This document shows positions 2,515 through 20,708 of a stretch of 42,645 nucleotides of DNA, piece after piece. The stretch spans positions 1 through 42,645 of IMG/VR virus record IMGVR_UViG_3300043219_000064; one strand, written 5' to 3'. The translations under genes and the position numbers were made by a program. The DNA is from a virus. The stretch's first letter is position 1, and each line of letters starts with the position of its first letter. The notes beneath the pieces were generated by a model. It did no database searches. It was not told the DNA's origin and saw only the letters and a program-made list of their open reading frames with translations.

Positions 2515-4216
2515 CAAATTATCAGACTTATTTGTAAAATTAGGACTCAACTCAACATCTTTCAATAAGGGTATTGATAAGGCAGAGAAGAAAACAGGTG
2601 CGTTCGGTAAGGGCATGGCAAAGATTGGCGGTTTAATAGCTGGTGCTTTTGCTGTTACTCAGGTTGTTGCTTTTGGTAAAGAGCTTGTTTTATTGGGTGG
2701 TGTTGCTGAGGGTGTAAGAAATGCGTTTAATCGCATGGCCTCAGATAGTACACTAAGAGACTTACAAGAGGCAACTGCCGGAACCGTTGGCGAATTAGAA
2801 CTAATGAAACGTGCGGTAAGTGCAAAGAATTTAGGATTGCCAATTGAACAACTGGCTAGCCTATTCGAGTTTGCAACTAAACGCGCACAAGAAACGGGGG
2901 AGTCAGTAGATTTCCTTGTTAACTCAATTGTAACAGGTATCGGTCGAAAGTCTCCTTTAATCCTTGACAACTTAGGAATCTCCGCTATTGAATTACGTAA
3001 ACAATTAGAAGGGGTTGGATTTGAGTCTGCTAAAGTTTCAGACATAGCCGCAGCAGTTGGAAGGATTGCCGCCGAGTCAATGGCGGAGAGTGGAAAGATC
3101 ATAGACACTAACGCAATCAAGGTTGCAAAGCTAACAGCTACATGGAAAGACTTCAAACTGTCTATTGCCGAGAGCAAAGGGTTCAATACATTTGTATCGA
3201 ACGAAATTGATATACTACAAGATAACTTTGAAGTATTCTTTAGTGAAACTTTATCTGGTTGGGATAAGTTTTTAGCCATTACGGACGTGACGGGAAGGAA
3301 TATGGAGATTCTAGCCAACAAATCAAAGAAACTAAGGGAAGAACAAAAAGGGCTAAACGATCATGTAGACGAAGGAACAGAGGCATATAGAAATAAGATT
3401 GCGGCCGAACAGGATGCAATATTGGCTGAAGTAAATCATATTCAAACCATTGGCGAACTAAAAAAAGAAACTGACGACTTAAAAGAATCACTAGAATTAT
3501 ATAATGTAGAGCAAGGTGTAGAGATTCAAAAAACATTAGCTCAGATAAAAGCCAATGAAGAACTAATCAAATCACTAACCACATTAAGAACTGCCAGAGG
3601 TGCAACGCCTGAGACTATGGCAACGCGTGGAGACGTTCCGCAGATAGGATTACCATTTGATCCAGAATCAGGATTGGCGAACATGGAAGCATTCTTTAAT
3701 AGAATGAGTGAACAATTAGATGCGTTCACAGAAGACTATTTGTCCGACTGGAGGCAATTAGGCGAAGATTTAGACAACTTAATCATTGATGGAATACTTT
3801 CTATTGCTGATGAATTTGGCGCGGCTATGGAGGCTATTTTTGCGGGTGATTTCAACATCGAAGAATTAGGAGCTAGATTATTAAAAACAATAGGCGGTTT
3901 TCTTGGCGAGTTTGGTAAGATGTTAATCGCCTACGGAATAGCACAGGAGGCGTTTTGGACTTCGCTAGGATTAGGGCCAATTGGTGCAGGGTTAGCAATC
4001 GCCGCTGGTGTCGCTTTGGTAGCTATTGGCGGTGCAATTAGTGGGGTAGGCTCTAGGGTGTCAAAAGGCAATCTATCAACTGGAGGCGGTGCAAATGCAC
4101 AAACCTTTAATGTAATCAACACTAATGCACAAGATCAAAGATTAGTTGCTAGTGTTAGCGGAAATGATCTTAACTTTGTACTAACGAAATTCCAAACTAA
4201 TCAAGGAAGAATTTAA
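2507..4216 (+). CDS. Tail tape measure protein
   Basis: The 569-residue product begins with SDLFVKLGLNSTSFNKGID, an N-terminal motif common in tape measure proteins. It is helical, with hydrophobic stretches near residues 40-65 and around 460-500 (Gly/Ala-rich), as expected for a protein ejected with DNA. The length is short for the family; at roughly 0.15 nm per residue it implies a tail near 85 nm (inference). Its start overlaps the chaperone frame by eight bases and its stop shares a base with the next ATG. Confidence 0.88.
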   Translation: MASKLSDLFVKLGLNSTSFNKGIDKAEKKTGAFGKGMAKIGGLIAGAFAVTQVVAFGKELVLLGGVAEGVRNAFNRMASDSTLRDLQEATAGTVGELELMKRAVSAKNLGLPIEQLASLFEFATKRAQETGESVDFLVNSIVTGIGRKSPLILDNLGISAIELRKQLEGVGFESAKVSDIAAAVGRIAAESMAESGKIIDTNAIKVAKLTATWKDFKLSIAESKGFNTFVSNEIDILQDNFEVFFSETLSGWDKFLAITDVTGRNMEILANKSKKLREEQKGLNDHVDEGTEAYRNKIAAEQDAILAEVNHIQTIGELKKETDDLKESLELYNVEQGVEIQKTLAQIKANEELIKSLTTLRTARGATPETMATRGDVPQIGLPFDPESGLANMEAFFNRMSEQLDAFTEDYLSDWRQLGEDLDNLIIDGILSIADEFGAAMEAIFAGDFNIEELGARLLKTIGGFLGEFGKMLIAYGIAQEAFWTSLGLGPIGAGLAIAAGVALVAIGGAISGVGSRVSKGNLSTGGGANAQTFNVINTNAQDQRLVASVSGNDLNFVLTKFQTNQGRI

Positions 4217-6435
4217 TGGCATACGGCATAAAATACACAGGAACATTAATAGACCATTTCGGCAGAACGGTTAAAGTTGATATATCTGAAAACAATTATT
4301 CAGGTGCGGAAATTCCTGTAATACTTGCCGGATTAACTAAAAACATAAACGGAGACGACCAAGATTTATTCGTTTCTAAATTAGGAAGCCTAATTAGCGT
4401 AGGTATATTAACACAATCAGACTTCCAGTACATAGATTTATTCACCGGAGATTCACGAAAGTATAAATTACAGGTTTATATTGATGCTGTTTTAGATTGG
4501 GTTGGGTGGGTGATTCCTGAGAACTTCACAGAGCCATACAACGGGACACCTTATGCAACAACAATAACTGCAAGGGATGGTTTAGGTGAACTATCTTCTA
4601 TTAAATATGAATTTACAGGTGTGCAAAGTAGTTTGTTCACATTGTTGTATTGCTTAAATAAACTAGCACCTACATTTATTGATACAATTAAATTAAACGT
4701 ATCTGTAGACATATATGAAGAAAACCACGTCACTACAGATTCTTCGTTGAATCAAACATATATAGATCAGTCCAGATATGAGGGAATGAATTGTGATGAA
4801 GTACTAAATGATTTATTAAATCTATGGGGGGCTAGAGTATATCAAAAAAATGCTGAGTGGTGGTTCGTGAATACGGTGGGTTTTGGATCTGTACTAAACG
4901 TGTTTAAATATGGTTTTTCTGGTATTTTAATAAGTCAATCAAATATAAACACTGAGCTGTTTATAGGATTACCAAACAATGATAAGTTTGCTAATTCAGA
5001 TCAGACTTTAAACGTACTTCCGGCATGGAAAGAACAAACCATAATAAGGGACTTTATATTTAAAAAATCAGCTCTATTGAATTATGAGTTCGATGATTGG
5101 TCACAAGTTGGAGCGGATTATTTGCCCGATGGTTGGAGCCAATCAGGAACGGGCGTAATTGATCGGTATAGTTCTAATGGCAAGGTATCAGCTAGGTTCG
5201 TAGATTACAGTACAGTAAGCCAGCCTACGAATTACATACTACAAACAATAAATAACATAGAAGGAAATAAGCACGGCTTAAAATTAAATTTATCCTTTAA
5301 GCTCAATAAGCTAACAGATGACGACATACTAGTTGGCTCTCAGTTCTGGGCGAAGATAGTGAATAAGTCAGGTGGCGGTGATAAGTATTTAACAAATGAT
5401 GCTACATGGTCATCGACTGAGGTCTTTATAAATTTTCAAAAGGTAGATGTTAAATTAGCTTCCAATTCAGCATACATTGATTATGAAATACCAAACACAT
5501 TAGTCATTCCTGAAGATGGATCATTAGAGGTTTATGTTTATAGTGCATTTGGTTCTTATTTGATACTTGATAGTTTTCAACTTCAATTAACATTCCCTCA
5601 AATAATTCCTTTATCACCGGAGCAATTTGGCGCATATCCAGACGAGCCAATAGTAGATTTAATACAAGTTGGGAATAATACATATATCCCTGATGATTTA
5701 GAATTATTAACAGGCGATTTTCCCGATCTAATAAATACTGGTGTTCAGCCATACAACGGAGAGTTAAACGAACAACATATCTATACAGGTGGATTATTCC
5801 TAAATAATGGCAAAAGCGAAGTAACTACCAACTGGTCGAAACTTCCTGTAAATTATGCAAACAAAACAAATCTTCACAAGGTAGTTGCAACGGCTAAAAG
5901 CGGAAAGGTCAATCTTCCTCAATGGGCTATAACCGGATCAATCCTAACTAAAGACATTAAGCCCGACAGTACGATTATAGATTACGAGGTAAATAATAAT
6001 AAATACCTTGTCTGTAATGGTAATCATGACATGGAGAAGTGTATTTTCAATGGCACGTTTATTCAGATAGGAAATTCAAACGTGTCAGGATGGATATTGG
6101 GCGAACCTTCTGGAATTTGGAATGATGCTAATGATTGGGATGATAACGGTCAATGGGTGGATTCAGCACAAGTAGAAGAGACTATTGAGTTGGCAGGAGT
6201 AGGGCCACACGATATTTCAGCATATTTAGGATTTGGAGATACAATAACTGTATTACCTTTAGCACCGGATTCAATGAACGACGCATTTACGCCAATAACA
6301 ACAGTCCCTCATATTATTGGAACTGATTTTCCAATTTATGTAGTAGCAGGGACACAAACAGTATCATATTCTAATACCTTTGAGGCAACAGCGGCAGGAG
6401 TGAATACAAAATTTACAGTAAACGTAACAATATAA
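4216..6435 (+). CDS. Distal tail / baseplate hub protein
   Basis: This 739-residue protein follows the tape measure directly, where the distal tail and hub proteins lie. The N-terminal 200 residues (MAYGIKYTGTLIDHFGRTVK, then GWVIPENFTEPY and ITARDGLGEL) resemble the tail-tip domain seen in Bacteroidetes phages: a beta-sandwich followed by a hub-like region ending near WGARVYQKNAEWWFVN. A central part around residues 290-430 looks like a jelly-roll carbohydrate-binding fold. Role in receptor contact is inferred from position. Confidence 0.6.
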   Translation: MAYGIKYTGTLIDHFGRTVKVDISENNYSGAEIPVILAGLTKNINGDDQDLFVSKLGSLISVGILTQSDFQYIDLFTGDSRKYKLQVYIDAVLDWVGWVIPENFTEPYNGTPYATTITARDGLGELSSIKYEFTGVQSSLFTLLYCLNKLAPTFIDTIKLNVSVDIYEENHVTTDSSLNQTYIDQSRYEGMNCDEVLNDLLNLWGARVYQKNAEWWFVNTVGFGSVLNVFKYGFSGILISQSNINTELFIGLPNNDKFANSDQTLNVLPAWKEQTIIRDFIFKKSALLNYEFDDWSQVGADYLPDGWSQSGTGVIDRYSSNGKVSARFVDYSTVSQPTNYILQTINNIEGNKHGLKLNLSFKLNKLTDDDILVGSQFWAKIVNKSGGGDKYLTNDATWSSTEVFINFQKVDVKLASNSAYIDYEIPNTLVIPEDGSLEVYVYSAFGSYLILDSFQLQLTFPQIIPLSPEQFGAYPDEPIVDLIQVGNNTYIPDDLELLTGDFPDLINTGVQPYNGELNEQHIYTGGLFLNNGKSEVTTNWSKLPVNYANKTNLHKVVATAKSGKVNLPQWAITGSILTKDIKPDSTIIDYEVNNNKYLVCNGNHDMEKCIFNGTFIQIGNSNVSGWILGEPSGIWNDANDWDDNGQWVDSAQVEETIELAGVGPHDISAYLGFGDTITVLPLAPDSMNDAFTPITTVPHIIGTDFPIYVVAGTQTVSYSNTFEATAAGVNTKFTVNVTI

Positions 6436-13495: not shown

Positions 13496-13543
13496 GTTAT
13501 AGTTAACCGCTCTATACGCTAAATAATAAGAGAGCGGTATAAC
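13496..13543. repeat. Unit 1 start arm and internal arm (short hairpin)
   Basis: GTTATAG plus ACCGCTCT at 13496-13513 pair with AGAGCGGT and TATAAC at 13531-13543, leaving a loop of 17 bases. The right half of this internal site, GTATAAACTTAATGC at 13553-13567, pairs with GCACTAAGCTTATAC at 14528-14542 beyond the methyltransferase gene (13 of 15). Confidence 0.65.
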
Positions 13544-13567
13544 AATAACACTGTATAAACTTAATGC

Positions 13568-14440
13568 TTAATCCAGTGTTTCAAATAAACTTCGCTGCGT
13601 AAAGTCTTTTTCTTTTATTTTTCCCTCCCCTTTAAGAAAAGAAAAAATGTGTGCTATAACATCAACTGTCCATCCATTCCCAAGCATGTTGTATCGCTGC
13701 GTAGTACTAACTCCTTCCGTATATCCGTCTGGTACTGTCTGTAATTTTTCACATTCACTTGGCGTTAACTTTCTAATTCCGTTATCTGTTTTTATTTGGT
13801 TTTTAGTACTGTTCGTAATTATGGCATTAGATTTATTGTCTGTCCTAAATTCAATTCGTTCAAACCTTTTCAATCCACGCTTCTTGTAATCCCTTGGGTA
13901 TGGTTGTGGCTGTCCTATTTGGGCGTTTGGTATTCCGATAACATCTCCAACAGTAATATTCCTGTCGGTTGGTTCGTTAAATTTTATATTTGTCCAATAA
14001 AAACGTGGTCTGTTTTGCCCCGAAACTACTGCCGAATTTATAAATATTGGTTCAACACCTAAGTATTCAGATATTATATCCCTAAATTCCTTTTTCATAC
14101 CAACATTCTCGAGCAACCAATGTTCGGGGTTTAGATTTTCCTTAGCTTTAACAAACTCAAAAAACAATTTACTTCTTGGGTCGTCAAAGTTTAATTCTTT
14201 CCCTGCGGTGCTAAACCCTTGGCAAGGGCTGCCGCCTATTAATAAATCAATCTTTGGCAACGAATCAAAGTCTACATCAAGAACACTTCCCATCTGTTTT
14301 GTGTTGGGGTAATTCTTTTGTGTTATTTCCATTGCATATTTGTCAATCTCATACGCAAAGTAATTATCAATAGCCACTCCAACTTTTTCAAGTGCTATTT
14401 GTCCGCAACTCATTCCATCATAATAACTTACTATATTCAT
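13568..14440 (-). CDS. DNA cytosine-5 methyltransferase, cassette cargo
   Basis: A 290-residue C5 methyltransferase with the expected order of motifs: I (SYYDGMSCGQIALE), IV with catalytic Cys73 (GGSPCQGFSTAG), VI (ENV at 111-113), VIII (QNRPRFYW from 142), IX (RKLTPSECEKLQTVPDGY) and X (YNMLGNGWTV). The target-recognition part is short. No restriction partner is nearby, so it probably protects phage DNA. The gene fills unit 1: the stop adjoins the internal arm at 13553-13567, and the matching arm lies upstream at 14528-14542. Imperfect 31-base direct repeats (near 13573-13603 and 14492-14522) also flank it. Confidence 0.9.
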   Translation of the reverse strand: MNIVSYYDGMSCGQIALEKVGVAIDNYFAYEIDKYAMEITQKNYPNTKQMGSVLDVDFDSLPKIDLLIGGSPCQGFSTAGKELNFDDPRSKLFFEFVKAKENLNPEHWLLENVGMKKEFRDIISEYLGVEPIFINSAVVSGQNRPRFYWTNIKFNEPTDRNITVGDVIGIPNAQIGQPQPYPRDYKKRGLKRFERIEFRTDNKSNAIITNSTKNQIKTDNGIRKLTPSECEKLQTVPDGYTEGVSTTQRYNMLGNGWTVDVIAHIFSFLKGEGKIKEKDFTQRSLFETLD

Positions 14441-14547
14441 ACTTTTAATTTTTTCAAAATTATTTGCTATATCTAAAAATAAAACAAAAAGGTGCAGTGT
14501 TTCAAACTAACTTCGGTTCGTAATTCCGCACTAAGCTTATACTTTAC

Positions 14548-14991
14548 GTTATATATCATTACCTCCACTCGTGCCTCGTTACGGTTTCATTTCCGCTTTT
14601 GCTCATAAATAATAGGAACTTATTTAATCGTTTCAAAGCTCCCAATGAACCATGATATATAACGTCCCGTCTAAACTCGAAAGGGTTCAGTGCTTTAATG
14701 TCGGAAACGATAAATAACAAGGTCTGAAACGCAATTTAGCGTCAGCACTAATAAGTCCTTTCGACTTTACTTTTTGTTCTCAGCCTTTTCTAAAATAGAA
14801 ATAGTTTCTTTGAGTAGTTTGTTTTCTTTTTTCAGTCTATCTACTAAACTATCTTGACATTTTACAAATGCCTCAGCCATTAGCATTTCACCATTTTCAA
14901 TGATTCTTTCTAATAATTCAATTTTATCTTTCATACCTATTCCTTTTTTATAAAATTCTTTCACAAAAACTAAACTGCGTTTAGACGGGAC
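14548..14991. repeat. Composite cassette A, copy 1
   Basis: From core to core this unit is nearly identical to 17987-18429 apart from the middle of its gene. Outer arms: 14546-14559 with 14652-14665, and 14662-14676 with 14979-14993, both perfect. Between the gene stop and the internal site (14677-14766) a further stem pairs CTCGAAAGG near 14676 with CCTTTCGA near 14757, and AGTGCT with AGCACT inside it. The 90 bases at 14560-14651 hold only a 15-codon frame (MSKSGNETVTRHEWR). Confidence 0.75.
14767..14934 (-). CDS. Cassette protein of unit 2, coiled coil
   Basis: Starting at the ATG at 14934, the 55-residue product (MKDKIELLERII to ILEKAENKK) is a charged helical protein. An upstream ATG in frame exists at 15042 but would read through the unit junction, so I reject it. 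The last residues ILEKAENKK match ILENAENKK of the paralogous unit at 18205, while the middle differs. Function unknown. Confidence 0.6.
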   Translation of the reverse strand: MKDKIELLERIIENGEMLMAEAFVKCQDSLVDRLKKENKLLKETISILEKAENKK

Positions 14992-15010
14992 GTTGTAGGC
15001 AATTAAAATG

Positions 15011-15208
15011 CTACAAATATTTACATTTCGAACATGCTTCACTAGTTATAGGATTATTGCAGATAGCTGTATCCTTTGGAATAAAGCATTTTAACAGTTC
15101 GCTTCGCCCAACAACACTATGTAAAATCAATAACTTATCGGTTGCTTCATCAATAGTTATTCGCTTTAATTTAAAGTCACCTAGTATTTTAAATATTTTA
15201 TGTTCCAT
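15011..15208 (-). CDS. Cassette protein of unit 3
   Basis: A 65-residue product ending CNNPITSEACSKCKYL, with Cys residues that could bind zinc. It fills the unit at 14992-15233. Start arm 14992-14999 pairs with 15108-15115 (7 of 8) and 15003-15012 with 15085-15094 (10 of 10), the internal arms lying inside the gene. No family recognised. Confidence 0.6.
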   Translation of the reverse strand: MEHKIFKILGDFKLKRITIDEATDKLLILHSVVGRSELLKCFIPKDTAICNNPITSEACSKCKYL

Positions 15209-15245
15209 GTTCGTTACTATTTTTACATTTTACGTTATAGATAAT

Positions 15246-15539
15246 CTAGGAATACCATTCGGTTATCGGGCCGGAGCATTTATCGCAGCCAAATCCATTA
15301 CCTGTGTTTTGTATATGTCCACATCCCATACATACATACCCATCGGGTTCTTCCTCGTCCAGAGGTTCTTCTTCGTATTCATCTAGACTATCAATAACAG
15401 AGTCTAAATTTAAAAGTTTTATTTGCTCCTGTGCGTAGCCATCTAATGCTTGTCTTATCCAAAATTCGTTAGCTTTATTCTTAGCTTCTGGGATACGTTT
15501 TTGTATCCAGCTCATCCAATTGTCTAATTCTTTATTCAT
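15246..15539 (-). CDS. Cassette protein of unit 4, C-terminal zinc ribbon
   Basis: A 97-residue protein: an N-terminal helical part (WMSWIQKRIPEAKNKANEFW), an acidic linker and a CMGCGH...CDKC zinc ribbon near the end. The unit start 15234-15250 pairs with 15382-15398 inside the gene (14 of 17). The internal site encodes LLNLDSV, a motif shared with other cassette proteins. Confidence 0.65.
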   Translation of the reverse strand: MNKELDNWMSWIQKRIPEAKNKANEFWIRQALDGYAQEQIKLLNLDSVIDSLDEYEEEPLDEEEPDGYVCMGCGHIQNTGNGFGCDKCSGPITEWYS

Positions 15540-15586
15540 TATTTCTTAGTATTTAATTCATAAAACTTCAAAAGTTAGCCAAATCG

Positions 15587-15832
15587 TTACCCACCATTGC
15601 CTTCTAACTTTTTTATCCTATCTGCAATATTCTGCTTTAATTCTTCGCATTCCGCTGCCTGTATCTTCCACCAAGGCAACGGTTCACTTCGTTGGGTAAC
15701 AAGGTCTAAATTTAACTTTAAAACTTGTTCAGCTAATTCCTCATTCTCTGTTTCTAACTTCTCAATTTCTTTATGCAATGCATCAAAGTGAGGTTGCATT
15801 TCTTTCTGTTCTCTGCTCGGTAACATACTCAT
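15587..15832 (-). CDS. Cassette protein of unit 5, coiled coil
   Basis: An 81-residue, largely coiled-coil protein (IEKLETENEELAEQVLKLNL, then ELKQNIADRIKKLE). Its stop TAA is formed by the junction core. Unit arms: 15586-15603 with 15673-15700, where a 10-base insert TCACTTCGTT splits the internal arm, and 15704-15724 with 15860-15880 (17 of 21). The internal site encodes LKLNLDLV. Confidence 0.65.
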   Translation of the reverse strand: MSMLPSREQKEMQPHFDALHKEIEKLETENEELAEQVLKLNLDLVTQRSEPLPWWKIQAAECEELKQNIADRIKKLEGNGG

Positions 15833-15885
15833 AATAATTATATTTATTTTTTCAATTCCGTTTTAAAACTAAACTTAGCCAAACG

Positions 15886-16065
15886 TTATGGAGAATGCTT
15901 TGCTAACAAAAAGTCAGTAGCAGCAATCTCATTATCATACCATTCTGTTGGATACGTGCTATCATTAGATTTTAAATGTTCTAATCTACGTCTCCAATCT
16001 AACAGCTCGTCTATTCCGGGCAGCCGTTTGTATTTCTTGTAACCTGTTAGCAAAACACTCTCCAT
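15886..16065 (-). CDS. Cassette protein of unit 6, distal gene
   Basis: A 59-residue protein starting MESVLLTGYKKYKRLPGIDE and ending LLAKHSP. Both ends of the gene lie in the unit's paired arms: 15885-15908 pairs with 16045-16068 (22 of 24), so the start ATG falls in one arm and the TAA stop in the other core. Unit 6 thus has one gene in each loop of the folded unit. Function unknown. Confidence 0.6.
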   Translation of the reverse strand: MESVLLTGYKKYKRLPGIDELLDWRRRLEHLKSNDSTYPTEWYDNEIAATDFLLAKHSP

Positions 16066-16089
16066 AACAAAGTACGATAAATAATTAAT

Positions 16090-16299
16090 TTACTTTCTTT
16101 CGATATTACTGTAATCTATTAATCGAAGTTGGAATCCTAATAAGCAAAAATAATAATCGTATTTGCCATTTAACCACTTTCTGTAAATTGAGATTACATG
16201 AAATTCACTATCACTGTACTTGTGATAATTATTTTTTAACTGTATCGCAAATTTGTTACACTGATATAACATCCAGTAATCTTGCCAATATTTATTCAT
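16090..16299 (-). CDS. Cassette protein of unit 6, proximal gene
   Basis: A 69-residue protein rich in aromatic residues (MNKYWQDYWMLYQCNKFAIQ; YDYYFCLLGFQLRLIDY). It lies in the second loop of unit 6, upstream of 15886-16065. The leader carries CGGAATTGAAACAC, also found before the genes of units 5 and 14. No family recognised. Confidence 0.6.
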   Translation of the reverse strand: MNKYWQDYWMLYQCNKFAIQLKNNYHKYSDSEFHVISIYRKWLNGKYDYYFCLLGFQLRLIDYSNIERK

Positions 16300-16353
16300 A
16301 ATAATATACTTTAGTGTTTCAATTCCGTAAATTAAAAATTCATGTACAGGCCG

Positions 16354-16674
16354 TTACCCATCATTAATAGATTTTAAATATAAGTCTACTAATTTGGTAA
16401 CTTTATCTATATCGCTTTCACCTGCAAGTTTATGAATCCATAAGCTAAAATCTATTAACGATTCGCGTTGCTGGGTAATAAAGTCTAAATTTAATGCTGT
16501 TTTATCACTCGTAGAATTTCCGTTTACTTTCTTCTCTATGTGCTCAATGTACTTTTCAGCTTTATCAGCATATTGTTTAAGTCCTCCTGTGTATCGTTTT
16601 TCATCGTTTTCTACACTTTCCCCTGCCCAGTATTCTTTTCTAATTGGCTTCTTTGGTTTCTTCATGTCGTTCAC
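16354..16674 (-). CDS. Cassette protein of unit 7
   Basis: A 106-residue charged helical protein. The stop TAA is part of the core at 16353. ATCATTAATAGATTTTA at 16360-16376 pairs with 16446-16462 inside the gene (16 of 17), and GTTACCC with GGGTAAT after a 10-base insert TCGCGTTGCT. The internal site encodes ALNLDFITQQRES, close to LNLDLVTQRSE of unit 5. Function unknown. Confidence 0.65.
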   Translation of the reverse strand: MNDMKKPKKPIRKEYWAGESVENDEKRYTGGLKQYADKAEKYIEHIEKKVNGNSTSDKTALNLDFITQQRESLIDFSLWIHKLAGESDIDKVTKLVDLYLKSINDG

Positions 16675-16746
16675 TATTTAGTAATTTATAATTTATATTT
16701 TCGTATCAATTGCGGTGCATATTTCACGCACTAAACTTAGTCAAAC

Positions 16747-17176
16747 GTTCAGTTCAATTACCTCGCTACGGCTCGGTTATCTTCTCCATGTCGCTAAATA
16801 AATTGAAAATAATTTATTCAGATTCCGACATTCCCGAAGCTACCATTGAACTGAACGTTTGGCTAAACTTGAAGGGTTTCGTCTAAGCCCGCTACGGCAA
16901 AAGCACAGAACAAAGTCTAAACGTAATTTGGCAGCAGTGCTTATAATTCCCTTCAACTTTTATTTTTATTCTCGTCCTCATTTAAAAATAAAACACTATC
17001 TGTTGAGAATCCGCTAACATTCCCATCTTTATCAAACCCAAATATTAATCTTTCTCCACTTCTTGCTGTGATAGTTAAGTAGGTGTATTCCTTGCCTTCA
17101 AAACCGTCTTTAAATTTGTACATAATTTTATTTTAAAATGATTACTTCACAAAAATCAAACTCCGTTTAGCCAAAC
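16747..17176. repeat. Composite cassette B, copy 1
   Basis: AACGTTCAGTTCAAT at 16744-16758 pairs perfectly with 16845-16859, and GTTTGGCTAAAC at 16857-16868 with 17165-17176. After the gene stop, TTGAAGGG/CCCTTCAA and AAGCAC/GTGCTT form inner stems around a core TTACGTTTAGACTTTG, which resembles the TTGCGTTTCAGACCTTG core in cassette A. The second copy is 18723-19278. Confidence 0.7.
16953..17123 (-). CDS. Cassette protein of unit 8
   Basis: A 56-residue frame (MYKFKDGFEGKEYTYLTITA ... NEDENKNKS) with alternating beta-like segments. It is flanked by the arms GTTTGGCTAAAC and GTTTAGCCAAAC. The last residues NKNKS recur in the paralogous unit at 19059, again showing conserved ends and a different middle. 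Function unknown. Confidence 0.6.
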   Translation of the reverse strand: MYKFKDGFEGKEYTYLTITARSGERLIFGFDKDGNVSGFSTDSVLFLNEDENKNKS

Positions 17177-17193
17177 GTTAGCGGTCATATGCC

Positions 17194-17430
17194 TCAAAGA
17201 ATGTGCTTGCCGCATATCGAGCATAGTGGTTTATTTCTTGCTCCATCGAATGATTGCGCCCAGTTCGGGTGTCGGCAAACAGACACGCTAACAATGTGCG
17301 ATAAATCATTTTTCTTTATTACAGCAGTACTATCATATTCATTCATAAGTTTAAGTAATTCGTGTTGCTCCCACATGTCTGATATTCCGTGTTTCTTTTT
17401 AAAGTCTCTTAAATACTCTTTTGCTTTCAT
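17194..17430 (-). CDS. Cassette protein of unit 9, possible zinc binding
   Basis: A 78-residue protein with an N-terminal helix (KEYLRDFKKKHGI) and C-terminal Cys pairs (SVCRHP, CSICGKHI). NDLSHIVSVSVC, encoded at the internal site, is close to NDLSHPVIVPVC of unit 15. Core GTTAGCG at 17177-17183 pairs with CGCTAAC at 17286-17292. Confidence 0.6.
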   Translation of the reverse strand: MKAKEYLRDFKKKHGISDMWEQHELLKLMNEYDSTAVIKKNDLSHIVSVSVCRHPNWAQSFDGARNKPLCSICGKHIL

Positions 17431-17477
17431 TAGTTTTCTCTTTTAATTCATAAATAAAATCAATTCATGCACCAGAC

Positions 17478-17552
17478 GTTGTAATTCATATTTTGCCATT
17501 TAAAAGTAGAGGTTAATAATGAAATTCGCAATGGCAAAAAACGAATAACAAC
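17478..17552. repeat. Unit 10 start arm and internal arm, 23-bp imperfect hairpin
   Basis: The first 23 bases of unit 10 (17478-17500) pair with 17530-17552 (20 of 23) around a 29-base loop with no gene. The right half of the internal site, GTGCAATATTGC near 17556, pairs with GCAACATGCAC near 17971-17981 beyond the gene. It shows the unit architecture with an empty first loop. The stretch 17553-17671 holds no frame that I can support. Confidence 0.7.
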
Positions 17553-17671
17553 AAAGTGCAATATTGCATTTTTCTTTCAACTAATAAACGGCTTACGTTA
17601 ATAAACCGTTTTTATAATTCCCCTCGCGCTTACAGTTTTGCAAACTGTCAATTATTAAGGATTGATATTTA

Positions 17672-17845
17672 CTACAGTATTTTTTCTTCATCAAACCAGT
17701 ATTCAACGCTACCAGTTGTGCAATAAATACCATTAGGTGATTTTTTATCATCAGTTGCAGCCTTTAATGCTTCCTCTTTTGTTTCAAAGTTTCCAATTTC
17801 AAATGTGAATCTGTCTGTTTCTGCTTTTAATTCGTGTAGTACCAT
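17672..17845 (-). CDS. Cassette protein of unit 10
   Basis: A 57-residue acidic protein (MVLHELKAETDRFTFEIGNF ... VEYWFDEEKIL). Alternating strands and a central helix KEEALKAATDDK suggest a small alpha-beta fold. It has an imperfect operator (ATGACAAAAATCAG) 54 bases upstream. The leader CCACTAAAATAAT is shared with the gene at 20283-20420. Function unknown. Confidence 0.6.
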   Translation of the reverse strand: MVLHELKAETDRFTFEIGNFETKEEALKAATDDKKSPNGIYCTTGSVEYWFDEEKIL

Positions 17846-17898
17846 CTTTTTTGTTTTTAATTATACCACTAAAATAATGTTTTCAAGTGTAAATAAAC

Positions 17899-17912
17899 AT
17901 GACAAAAATCAG
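17899..17912. promoter_or_regulatory. Operator-like palindrome, imperfect
   Basis: ATGACAAAAATCAG differs from the ATGACTTTTATCAT type in the centre and last base. It stands upstream of the unit 10 gene, in the same place relative to the CCACTAAAATAAT leader as the perfect site at 20480. Confidence 0.4.
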
Positions 17913-17986
17913 CCTTTACAAAATAATTATAAAAACTGCTGTATAACATTTAATCGAATACATCTTAAACGCAACATGCACCGGAC

Positions 17987-18429
17987 ATTATATATCATTA
18001 CCTCCACTCGTACCTCGTTACGGTTTCATTTCCGCTTTTGCTCATAAATAATAGGAACTTATTTAATCGTTTCAAAGCTCTCAATGAACCATGATATATA
18101 ACGTCCCGTCTAAACTCGAAAGGGTTCAGTGCTTTAATGTCGGAAACGATAAATAACAAGGTCTAAAAGCAATTTAGCGGCAGTACCTATAAGTCCTTTC
18201 GACTTTACTTTTTGTTCTCAGCATTTTCTAAAATAGAAATAGAGACTCTGATTTGATGTACTCTATTATTCCAGAACTCTGCGGCTTCTAGTTTTCCTTC
18301 TTTTGTGTTTTTGACTGCACGTTCTCTGCTTTCTTGAATCTCTCTTTTTAATATTAAAATTGAATACCTCATACCTATTTCTTTTTTATAAAATTCTTTC
18401 ACAAAAACTAAACTGCGTTTAGACGGGAC
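17987..18429. repeat. Composite cassette A, copy 2
   Basis: Nearly identical to 14548-14991 at both ends; the homology begins and ends at the cores (left flanks differ, right flanks GTTGTAGG versus GTTATAGT). Arms: 17985-17998 with 18091-18104 (13 of 14) and 18101-18115 with 18417-18431 (perfect). Only the central part of the gene has diverged. Confidence 0.75.
18205..18372 (-). CDS. Cassette protein of unit 11
   Basis: From the ATG at 18372 the product has 55 residues (MRYSILILKREIQESRERAV ... ILENAENKK), helical and basic. A longer frame starting at 18453 crosses the junction and is unlikely. Only the C-terminal end and the leader match the unit 2 protein. Function unknown. Confidence 0.6.
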   Translation of the reverse strand: MRYSILILKREIQESRERAVKNTKEGKLEAAEFWNNRVHQIRVSISILENAENKK

Positions 18430-18445
18430 GTTATAGTTCAGTTTG

Positions 18446-18679
18446 CTAATCATCTAAAAATCTCATATCAATACCCTTGCTTTCTCCGCATACACTACAG
18501 GCTTGCGTGTGTGTACAATCGCAAACCGAAACAATAACACAAGCTAAATTTAATTTTAAAACCTCAGTTTCTAGCCATGTAACATACTCCTCGTTAAATA
18601 CTAACGGTGCTTTAGGTGGTATAAATATACCTTTCTTTACTTCTTTTAAGTACTTTCTTCTAATGTCTGTAATCTTCAT
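18446..18679 (-). CDS. Cassette protein of unit 12, Cys-rich C terminus
   Basis: A 77-residue protein with EVLKLNLACVIVSVC encoded at the internal site, followed by DCTHTQACSVCGES, a likely zinc-binding loop. GCAAACCGAAACAATAAC at 18521-18538 pairs with the unit start at 18430. Right arms pair as GCTAAATTTAATTTTAAAAC near 18543 with the leader near 18690-18715. No family recognised. Confidence 0.65.
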   Translation of the reverse strand: MKITDIRRKYLKEVKKGIFIPPKAPLVFNEEYVTWLETEVLKLNLACVIVSVCDCTHTQACSVCGESKGIDMRFLDD

Positions 18680-18742
18680 TTTGTGGTTTTTAAACGGTTT
18701 TAAAACTCAACTTAGCAGCAACGTTCAATGCAATTGCCTTCG

Positions 18743-18913
18743 CTAAGGCTCGGCTGTGTTTCCGTTTCTGCTCATAAATTTATCTAGGTATTTATCCAAT
18801 ACTATTATGCCTTGCAGCGTTGATTTAGCGAATCTAATATCAGCAACTATTTTCCACAATTCTAATTCCCTGTCAGTCAAACCACTTGCTTGTGTAGTCT
18901 TTAATTTATTCAT
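18743..18913 (-). CDS. Cassette protein of unit 13, first-loop gene
   Basis: A 56-residue helical protein (MNKLKTTQASGLTDRELELW ... NGNTAEP). Its 3' end runs into the conserved CCGAGCC-TAGCGA segment seen at the same place in the three other composite cassettes. Function unknown. Confidence 0.55.
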   Translation of the reverse strand: MNKLKTTQASGLTDRELELWKIVADIRFAKSTLQGIIVLDKYLDKFMSRNGNTAEP

Positions 18914-19058
18914 ACTATAAATTTAATCGTTTCGAAACTCTCAACCCACCATTGCATTGAACGTTTGGCTAAACTTGAAGGGTTTCGTCTAAGCCCGCGA
19001 AGCCAAAAGCATAGAACAAAGGCTAAACGTAATTTGGCAGCAGTGCTTATAATTCCCT

Positions 19059-19226
19059 TCAACTTTTATTTTTATTCCCAGTCTTTAATTTTAAAATTGA
19101 CTTATCAATCTTAGCCAGTTTTGTGTCATACGTATCTACTAATTTATTATTATTCTTGAAAGCGTAAAATCCCTGTTCGCGTTCATATTGTTTTCTTTTC
19201 TTTTTTAAAAATTTTAGCCTATCCAT
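19059..19226 (-). CDS. Cassette protein of unit 13, second-loop gene
   Basis: A 55-residue very basic protein (MDRLKFLKKKRKQYEREQGF ... LKTGNKNKS). The ending NKNKS and the following structured segment are shared with the unit 8 gene. Basic charge suggests nucleic acid contact, which is inference only. Confidence 0.55.
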   Translation of the reverse strand: MDRLKFLKKKRKQYEREQGFYAFKNNNKLVDTYDTKLAKIDKSILKLKTGNKNKS

Positions 19227-19279
19227 AATATTTTAAAATTAAATCCTTTCATAAAAATCAAACTCCGTTTAGCCGAACG

Positions 19280-19591
19280 TTATATGCAATAAATTTTTAC
19301 CTCATTATTATTGTAATCATGGTGTACCGATGTAACCTGATATTGAATACCTCCACAAATCCAAACGTATTGGTTTATTATTGGAGCTTGCATATTTGTA
19401 TTTATCTCTTCTACTATATTGCCATTTTGTGAAAAAAATTTAAAGCATATAACACAAGGTATAGCAAATGATTTTACTAAGTCATCCATTAGTCCGTCAA
19501 CATCTACATGATGTGCTATTATTCCGTTCTTTTCCGATTCTTCAATTTCTACTGAATTTCTTTCGATTAGTTTAAATAATTTCTTTTTCAT
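19280..19591 (-). CDS. Cassette protein of unit 14
   Basis: A 103-residue protein with a beta-rich C terminus (IINQYVWICGGIQYQVTSVH). The stop TAA is formed by the core at 19279. The unit start pairs with AGCATATAAC near 19444-19453, and GGTATAGCAAATGATTTTAC near 19458 pairs with the leader near 19624-19640 (16 of 20). The internal site encodes DDLVKSFAIPCVICF. Function unknown. Confidence 0.6.
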   Translation of the reverse strand: MKKKLFKLIERNSVEIEESEKNGIIAHHVDVDGLMDDLVKSFAIPCVICFKFFSQNGNIVEEINTNMQAPIINQYVWICGGIQYQVTSVHHDYNNNEVKIYCI

Positions 19592-19644
19592 AATTGTAAA
19601 TTTTGTGTTTCAATTCCGTAAAATAAAATGCCATACCAGCAACG

Positions 19645-19902
19645 TTATAGTTCAGTTTGCTTAAAGAGTTCAAATCTATCAGGACACATAAAAGTAATAG
19701 GGCTGTGTCGCTCTTTTGTTTTTCCGCAGTGTTCGCAAACCGGAACAATAACAGGGTGCGATAAATCATTTTCATTTACTACGTCCGGTGTAGATGCTAG
19801 TTTAAGCATTCTTAGTATAGTTCCATCTTCTGGTAATTCTATTCCTGCAATTGCAGCGTGAGCAATTAATGTTCTTTTTGCTTTTTGATAATTTGTTTCC
19901 AT
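19645..19902 (-). CDS. Cassette protein of unit 15, Cys-rich
   Basis: An 85-residue protein with an N-terminal helical part and NDLSHPVIVPVCEHCGKTKE at the internal site, which may bind zinc. The unit start GTTATAGTTCAGTTTGC pairs with GCAAACCGGAACAATAAC at 19735-19752. The start sequence is shared with unit 12, yet the genes differ, as if ends and coding parts had been exchanged. Confidence 0.65.
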   Translation of the reverse strand: METNYQKAKRTLIAHAAIAGIELPEDGTILRMLKLASTPDVVNENDLSHPVIVPVCEHCGKTKERHSPITFMCPDRFELFKQTEL

Positions 19903-19964
19903 TTTTCACTTAGTTTTAAATTCGTAAATAAAATTAATTCATGCACCGGACATTAGCAATAATG

Positions 19965-20228
19965 CTAGCCAAACATATCATGCTTTCTTCTGTTCTTGCG
20001 GTTTCTAAGCTCTTGTTTTAGTTTATCATTAGCACAATTGCTAACAATATGGAAATGCAATAAATCAAAATTAAGCAACCTCTCAGCCATTTTAATCATT
20101 GTGCGTTTATTTGCATCAGGCAAAGTGTCAAATTCTACCTTGCAATTTTCTTGTGTATTCCAGTTTTCTTTTCGGGCTACCTCTTCGTAATTGTCGTGCA
20201 GCCACTTTGCTAGTTCTAATTTATTCAT
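19965..20228 (-). CDS. Cassette protein of unit 16
   Basis: An 87-residue protein with a helical N terminus (LELAKWLHDNYEEVARKENW) and a basic tail (ELRNRKNRRKHDMFG). The core here is ATT rather than GTT: ATTAGCAAT at 19952 pairs with ATTGCTAAC at 20037-20045. The internal site encodes LLNFDLLHFHIVSNC. The N-terminal half resembles small phage proteins of unknown role. Confidence 0.65.
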   Translation of the reverse strand: MNKLELAKWLHDNYEEVARKENWNTQENCKVEFDTLPDANKRTMIKMAERLLNFDLLHFHIVSNCANDKLKQELRNRKNRRKHDMFG

Positions 20229-20282
20229 CTGTGTATAATTTTAATTTACTTCACTTGCACGGGGCGTTGTAGGTAATAAAAA

Positions 20283-20420
20283 TTACTCAAAATCCTCAAT
20301 ATTTTCACTACCACAATCAGGACATTTATTACAAGGGTCATCTATTGCATCAGTTTCACTCACTAACATAGTTGAATCTCCTGTCCAATCACAATTATTA
20401 CAAATTAATTCTTCTTCCAT
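20283..20420 (-). CDS. Small zinc-ribbon protein (last array gene)
   Basis: A 45-residue protein with CNNC and CPDC pairs (MEEELICNNCDWTGD; DPCNKCPDCGSENIEDFE), a classical zinc ribbon. It follows the core at 20266. Pairing arms for this unit are not clear, so it may be the fixed end of the array rather than a complete unit. The promoter and operator at 20480 stand directly upstream. Confidence 0.65.
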   Translation of the reverse strand: MEEELICNNCDWTGDSTMLVSETDAIDDPCNKCPDCGSENIEDFE

Positions 20421-20479
20421 TATCGTAATTATAAAAACCTTTTATTCCACTAAAATAATATACCTTGATAAATATAACA

Positions 20480-20493
20480 ATGACTTTTATCAT
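20480..20493. promoter_or_regulatory. Operator-like palindrome
   Basis: ATGACTTTTATCAT, one of nine related sites. On the minus strand it runs into CATTG, where TTG fits a -33 element, followed after about 20 bases by TATTTTAG (near TAnnTTTG). It probably controls leftward transcription into the cassette array. Confidence 0.6.
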
Positions 20494-20708
20494 GTTATTG
20501 ATTTTTTATTTATAATTGCAGATATTTTATAAATTACATTTTGCTCTGAAATTGAATATCCGCTATATGATTTAACCAATATATATTCTTCATCAAAAAT
20601 ATCAAAATAATAATCTCCTTCCCGGACGTTATATTTAACTACGGCGGTGAACTCTTTATGTTTTATTCTGAATTTCTTGATTAGTTCTATGTCGGTTATT
20701 TCTATCAT
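20490..20708 (-). CDS. Hypothetical protein
   Basis: A 72-residue protein with alternating beta strands and a C-terminal helix (IYKISAIINKKSI). Its stop lies inside the operator at 20480-20493, and its start shares one base with the preceding stop. No family recognised. Confidence 0.6.
   Translation of the reverse strand: MIEITDIELIKKFRIKHKEFTAVVKYNVREGDYYFDIFDEEYILVKSYSGYSISEQNVIYKISAIINKKSIT

Follow-up and report, generated by a model that had tools for sequence, protein, structure and literature searches.

Probable integron-type cassette array in a phage record, with genes reversed relative to their attC sites

Results

We analyzed the whole of the 42.6-kb virus record IMGVR_UViG_3300043219_000064, which we refer to as the window (GC content 35%). 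Plus-strand genes occupy the window up to approximately 13.1 kb, minus-strand genes of early type (helicase, methylase, and small ORFs) extend from approximately 20.5 to 31 kb, and the genes for head formation and packaging lie beyond. Between the plus-strand block and the minus-strand early block sits an array of 16 tandem units, which after refinement by hand spans positions 13,496 to 20,266; a 17th unit likely follows directly past the last of them (U15). Each unit carries one or two small ORFs on the minus strand. On the plus strand, the units share the pattern GTT-x ... x'-AAC-y ... y'-GTT, and their arms pair inside their own unit and differ in sequence from unit to unit. This arrangement follows the plan of an attC site, R''-spacer-L''...L'-spacer-R', with GTT as R', the internal AAC as R'', and the unit boundary at G|TT.

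Features of the array (window coordinates; units are given on the plus strand and ORFs on the minus strand)
Array U0 to U15, 13496..20266, plus: attC top strand (R'' to R'), with ORFs on minus; from chain search, arm statistics, and layout
U0, 13496..14548, plus: body 51 nt; R'' AAC at 13547; attC span 1001 nt, with a whole Dcm methylase in the loop
Dcm-type cytosine methyltransferase (U0), 13568..14440, minus: 290 aa; from blastn to annotated phage DNA methylases
U1, 14548..14992, plus: R' GTT at 14548; R'' AAC at 14716; next R' GTT at 14992
U1 ORF, 14934..14767, minus: in attC loop
U2, 14992..15234, plus: R'' at 15113; ORF 15208..15011 (minus) crosses R''
U3, 15234..15586, plus: R'' at 15396; ORF 15539..15246 (minus) crosses R''
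U4, 15586..15885, plus: R'' at 15698; ORF 15832..15587 (minus) crosses R''; TAA stop formed by the core G|TTA
U5, 15885..16353, plus: unit with a 24-base arm; R'' at 16066
U5 ORFs: 16299..16090 (minus) in attC loop; 16065..15886 (minus) in body, core-derived stop
U6, 16353..16747, plus: R'' at 16477; ORF 16665..16354 (minus) crosses R'', core-derived stop
U7, 16747..17177, plus: R'' at 16909; ORF 17123..16953 (minus) in attC loop
U8, 17177..17478, plus: R'' at 17290; ORF 17430..17194 (minus) crosses R''
U9, 17478..17987, plus: R'' at 17550; ORF 17845..17672 (minus) in attC loop
U10, 17987..18430, plus: R'' at 18155; ORF 18372..18205 (minus) in attC loop
U11, 18430..18723, plus: R'' at 18536; ORF 18679..18446 (minus) crosses R''
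U12, 18723..19279, plus: R'' at 19015; ORFs 18913..18743 (minus) in body and 19226..19059 (minus) in attC loop
U13, 19279..19644, plus: R'' at 19451; ORF 19591..19280 (minus) crosses R'', core-derived stop
U14, 19644..19952, plus: R'' at 19750; ORF 19902..19645 (minus) crosses R'', core-derived stop
U15, 19952..20266, plus: R'' at 20043; ORF 20228..19965 (minus) crosses R''
Probable 17th unit, 20266..20628, plus: ORF 20420..20283 (minus); R'' not placed; boundary by eye
Inverted junction copies: about 14651-14676 (U1), 16844-16869 (U7), 18090-18115 (U10), and 18950-18975 (U12)

A blind search for chains of the GTT-x..x'-AAC-y..y'-GTT pattern recovered 13 consecutive units plus two more with a score of 182, compared with a score of at most 10 (one unit) in shuffled window DNA. 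A first, looser chain detector had called arrays in three GC-rich sequences (L082, L019, and L080) that proved false, therefore we tightened the scoring. The R'' (AAC) and R' (GTT) cores are present in all 16 units, with a single transition (ATT or AAT) in three core copies. The imperfect inverted repeat of an attC site was confirmed, with an R box, an unpaired spacer, and an L box, and the spacers are mostly 4 to 6 and 2 to 5 nt long. The attC sites span 121 to 437 nt, and 1,001 nt in one of the 16 units; the usual length of attC sites is about 57 to 141 nt. Single unpaired bases are visible by eye in several L'' arms. A search of Rfam returned no match, and a scan of viral contigs with exact site consensus strings found no convincing array.

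All the cassette ORFs are reversed relative to the polarity of the attC sites, and most of them lie in or across an attC site and begin within its loop. An ORF crosses R'' in nine of the 16 units and lies entirely within the attC loop in the other seven, of which U5 and U12 also have an ORF in the body. This layout bears out a preliminary description of the window, made from sequence alone, in which coding sequence was said to fill the loops. In five units, the core itself (at 15586, 15885, 16353, 19279, and 19644) supplies the end of the gene, as G|TTA gives the TAA stop of a minus-strand ORF. The layout usual in integrons, which is not mechanistically essential (gene running from R' to R'' in the attC direction, short attC site), is absent from the array, and the reversed cassette genes agree in direction with the adjoining minus-strand early genes. 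The U14 and U4 ORFs had no tblastn match among phage records, and the cassette ORFs that we tested had no Pfam or PHROG assignment, weak matches apart. U11 (ORF 18446-18679) and U14 (ORF 19645-19902) have common x arms (GTTATAGTTCAGTTTGC) and different y arms and proteins; both proteins have cysteine motifs close to the site, and it is possible that protein ends were exchanged at R''.

The preliminary description had pointed out that unit ends pair with an internal site, based on four units out of the at least 16 present. The pairings themselves are real: 14546-14559/14652-14665 (14 bp) and 14662-14676/14979-14993 (15 bp) are perfect inverted repeats, AACGTTCAGTTCAAT (from 16744) pairs with its exact complement at 16845-16859, AACGTTCAATGCAAT (from 18720) pairs with its exact complement at 18951-18965, and the 24-base arm at 15885-15908/16045-16068 pairs at 22 of 24 positions. 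In the units described as starting at 14546, 16747, and 18723, however, the internal partner is not R'' but an additional feature, an inverted copy of the unit's own circular junction (its end joined to its start). Only U1, U7, U10, and U12 have such a copy, with one to three mismatches in 26 positions versus 11 to 13 in units without a copy, and these four units form a subclass within the array. Their attC-type R'' lies further in, with AAC at 14716, 16909, 18155, and 19015. We reassigned R'' in these units by reading the sequence and then checked the core positions; the chain search and the arm permutation take R'' at the inverted junction copy, and the wobble counts, folding, and ORF layout use the corrected R''. 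The copies delimit segments of roughly 110 to 240 bp with inverted ends, which could allow the delimited segment to invert. Within this subclass, U10 is a near-duplicate of U1, with 98% identity over 184 nt from the core, and the inner ORFs of the two units differ.

Pairing is kept while the arm sequences change, as had been proposed. The x arms scored 22.6 within their own unit compared with 4.2 when paired with arms of other units (permutation z = 11.4, p ≤ 1e-5), and the y arms scored 19.6 compared with 9.1 (z = 7.8, p ≤ 1e-5); this significance remains when duplicate units are removed. The arms contain 38 transition mismatches. As G.T wobbles, 37 of these belong to the bottom (minus) strand and a single one belongs to the top strand. 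Because composition alone yields a 70% bottom share when arms of different units are paired, we corrected for it, which gave p = 3e-5. In silico folding of circularized, single-stranded attC segments with DNA parameters predicted better pairing for the bottom strand than for the top strand in all 16 units, with a mean of 15.1 expected end-arm pairs for the bottom strand, 8.4 for the top strand, and 1.0 for a shuffled arm. The 1-kb Dcm unit U0 hardly closes in the predicted fold (1.3 expected pairs). Adding the arms of related phages, which had been named as a way of refuting selection on structure, gave the same pairing and the same strand bias: the pooled units of other phages have 32 of 34 wobbles on the bottom strand (32:2, composition-corrected p = 8e-4).

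Judging from the one-strand wobbles and the predicted folding advantage of the same strand, the pairing is maintained in a single strand, the attC bottom strand, in agreement with the folded single strand that the preliminary description had suggested. Neither a double-stranded site nor homogenization of the arms predicts wobbles on one strand together with better folding of that strand. The phage sense strand, which has the mRNA sequence, is the attC bottom strand in this array, and RNA folding could add to the wobble bias; because the transcripts have the bottom-strand sequence, its share is inseparable within the window. The bacterial control arrays contained too few wobbles to tell DNA folding from RNA folding.

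Related phages gain and lose whole units at G|TT. The Polaribacter phages P12002L and P12002S have at least 99% identity in their shared flanks and differ in cassette content. The empty site in P12002L, CAAACG|TTACCTGC, corresponds in P12002S to a filled site, CAAACG|TTAGCAAC...methylase...AGTACG|TTACCTGC; the insertion at G|TT is clean. Between these phages, three further breakpoints fall on the core and one falls in an L box, at an ATACA microhomology. P12002S has three extra units, two of which have ORFs crossing R''. Among 99.9%-identical isolates of Flavobacterium muminviruses, some have and others lack, at AACG|TTA, a 506-bp unit whose ORF (4190-4618) begins within the attC part. No target site is duplicated there apart from the shared core, and the breakpoints of three other array differences also coincide with the core. 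The cassettes of the muminviruses and the two Polaribacter phages are rich in DNA methyltransferases.

We found no close relative of the window with a variant array; therefore, the argument for mobility in the window phage is one of analogy, together with the duplication that U1 and U10 represent. The contigs nearest by helicase stop short of the array or differ in this region. A contig related through its helicase (L067) has the same unit layout as the window. In a phage-like contig from a Bacteroidetes metagenome-assembled genome (MAG; L128), the helicase is 78% identical and attC-like sites flank genes downstream of it. Another candidate relative (L101), selected by tblastx similarity, proved to have no array.

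The 42.6-kb record is possibly a fragment; it had no match to the phage integrase family PF00589 and thus has no integron integrase in cis. Such integrases are common in the phylum of the Bacteroidetes MAG: in a sample of 395 genomes from that phylum, 105 have an integron integrase (TIGR02249) above the curated cutoff. Conventional attC arrays adjoin two of these integrases (in L179 and L167), with sites like those of the window and genes in the usual direction. Four AT-rich genomes of the phylum (L172, L182, L184, and L186) have a full-length integron integrase and no array visible to our detector within about 10 kb. Few complete integrons were reported in Bacteroidetes with IntegronFinder 2.0 (PMC9024848). 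Among phage records, integron integrase matches came from Shewanella, Vibrio, P1-like, and a few other phages, and none came from phages of Flavobacteriia.

Discussion

The core, the G|TT boundary, the unpaired spacers, the L boxes, and the similar sites beside integron integrases of the phylum make the likeness to attC specific, as the preliminary description had supposed. We consider it very probable that the region is a phage-borne cassette array of integron type, acted on at G|TT by an integrase supplied in trans. We call it CALIN-like because it has attC-type cassettes and the record has no integrase. In this reading, each unit between two G|TT cores would correspond to one cassette (TT...G), whose attC site would form by folding of the bottom (minus) strand. 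The folded strand would be recognized by an integron integrase acting in trans, most likely from a Bacteroidota host, and cassettes would be joined by it at G|TT; genes could thereby be gained, lost, and reordered. A plausible reason for the reversed genes is that, in an array placed against early transcription, only reversed cassettes would be expressed, and a phage-specific cassette pool may build up in this way.

Ordinary or microhomology-mediated recombination between phages, occurring at the conserved motif ACGTTA without a site-specific recombinase, is an improbable explanation for the array. Phage genomes are mosaic and one P12002 breakpoint falls in the L-box ATACA; however, most breakpoints have only about 4 to 7 nt in common and coincide with the core, even though CGTT makes up only 0.4 to 0.6% of positions, and this explanation does not account for the arm covariation or the one-strand wobbles. 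It is slightly less probable still that the arms pair in mRNA, forming long-range helices that link the 5' leader, middle, and 3' end of each small ORF and control translation or stability without any recombination. The transcripts do match the wobble-paired strand in sequence, and the arms are located at the starts, middles, and ends of ORFs. Against this, whole units move together in related phages and break at G|TT, the layout is like that of attC sites beside integron integrases, and several ORFs lie entirely inside one loop. Double-stranded inverted recombinase sites of the XerC/XerD pdif type, or a transposon with terminal inverted repeats, are very unlikely: inverted repeats bound the units and four units hold a near-exact inverted junction copy, but the arms vary strongly between units as fixed binding sites would not, the pairing is strand-specific, the proteins examined included no transposase, and the muminvirus insertion is flanked by no target duplication other than the shared core.

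The closest known counterparts of the probable integron-type array are CALINs, clusters of attC sites without an integrase, whose occurrence in phages such as P12002L was reported in 2023 (Qi et al., PMC9892861). These share with the window attC-bounded cassettes, methylase cargo, and no integrase in the record, and IntI1 was shown to act on one P12002L site (attC2), with joining at G|TTRRRY. P12002L is described there as having few predicted attC sites, whereas the window has at least 16 units with mostly unknown small ORFs that lie inside or run through attC.

The Bacteroidota chromosomal integrons L167 and L179 resemble the window in having an R' core of GTTATA type and R-box pairing longer than 7 bp, and L179 also has the AAC-AAAGT spacer and the CTTAGCC..CGTTA arm. 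They differ from the window in that their genes run from R' to R'' in the attC direction, their attC sites are about 75 to 125 nt long, and the integrase is adjacent. The R-box pairing in several of their units extends over about 9 to 15 bp; the textbook R box is 7 bp. The Vibrio superintegron, with attC sites of VCR type, likewise has many small unknown cassettes and a site folded from the bottom strand with an unpaired central spacer. Its genes run in attC polarity, and we know of no genes in the VCR loop. Modules of pdif type (XerC/XerD) also place small genes between inverted sites of tyrosine recombinase type. However, the window has no fixed 11-6-11 site, and its arms covary and are strand-biased; conserved XerC/XerD arms around a 6-bp spacer were not found, judging from the arms of different units not matching.

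The apparently new features are the gene orientation, opposite to the polarity of attC, and the gene position, either within the attC loop or extending through it. Because gene direction, gene position, and attC length differ, we classify the array as a variant of phage integron cassette arrays. Tentatively, such cassettes may constitute an inside-out class in Bacteroidota phages, in which the attC loop is the gene, the gene is reversed, and the cassettes are moved by host integrases, including those beside which no array is visible.

These results indicate that sizeable libraries of small genes, rearranging and built on integron chemistry, are maintained by phages. Near-isogenic phage pairs document in nature how cassettes are gained and lost. 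Some of the cassettes are methylases of the sort tied to infection success on different hosts (PMC7077304). In the same study, a methyltransferase difference among muminviruses was linked to plating efficiency; therefore, cassette swaps may alter infection success. A layout with reversed genes in the attC loop would probably be missed by attC finders tuned to short hairpins, and the common, often array-less integron integrases of Bacteroidota gain a possible substrate. If the inside-out class is real, misses by search tools would help explain why these integrases often seem to be alone.
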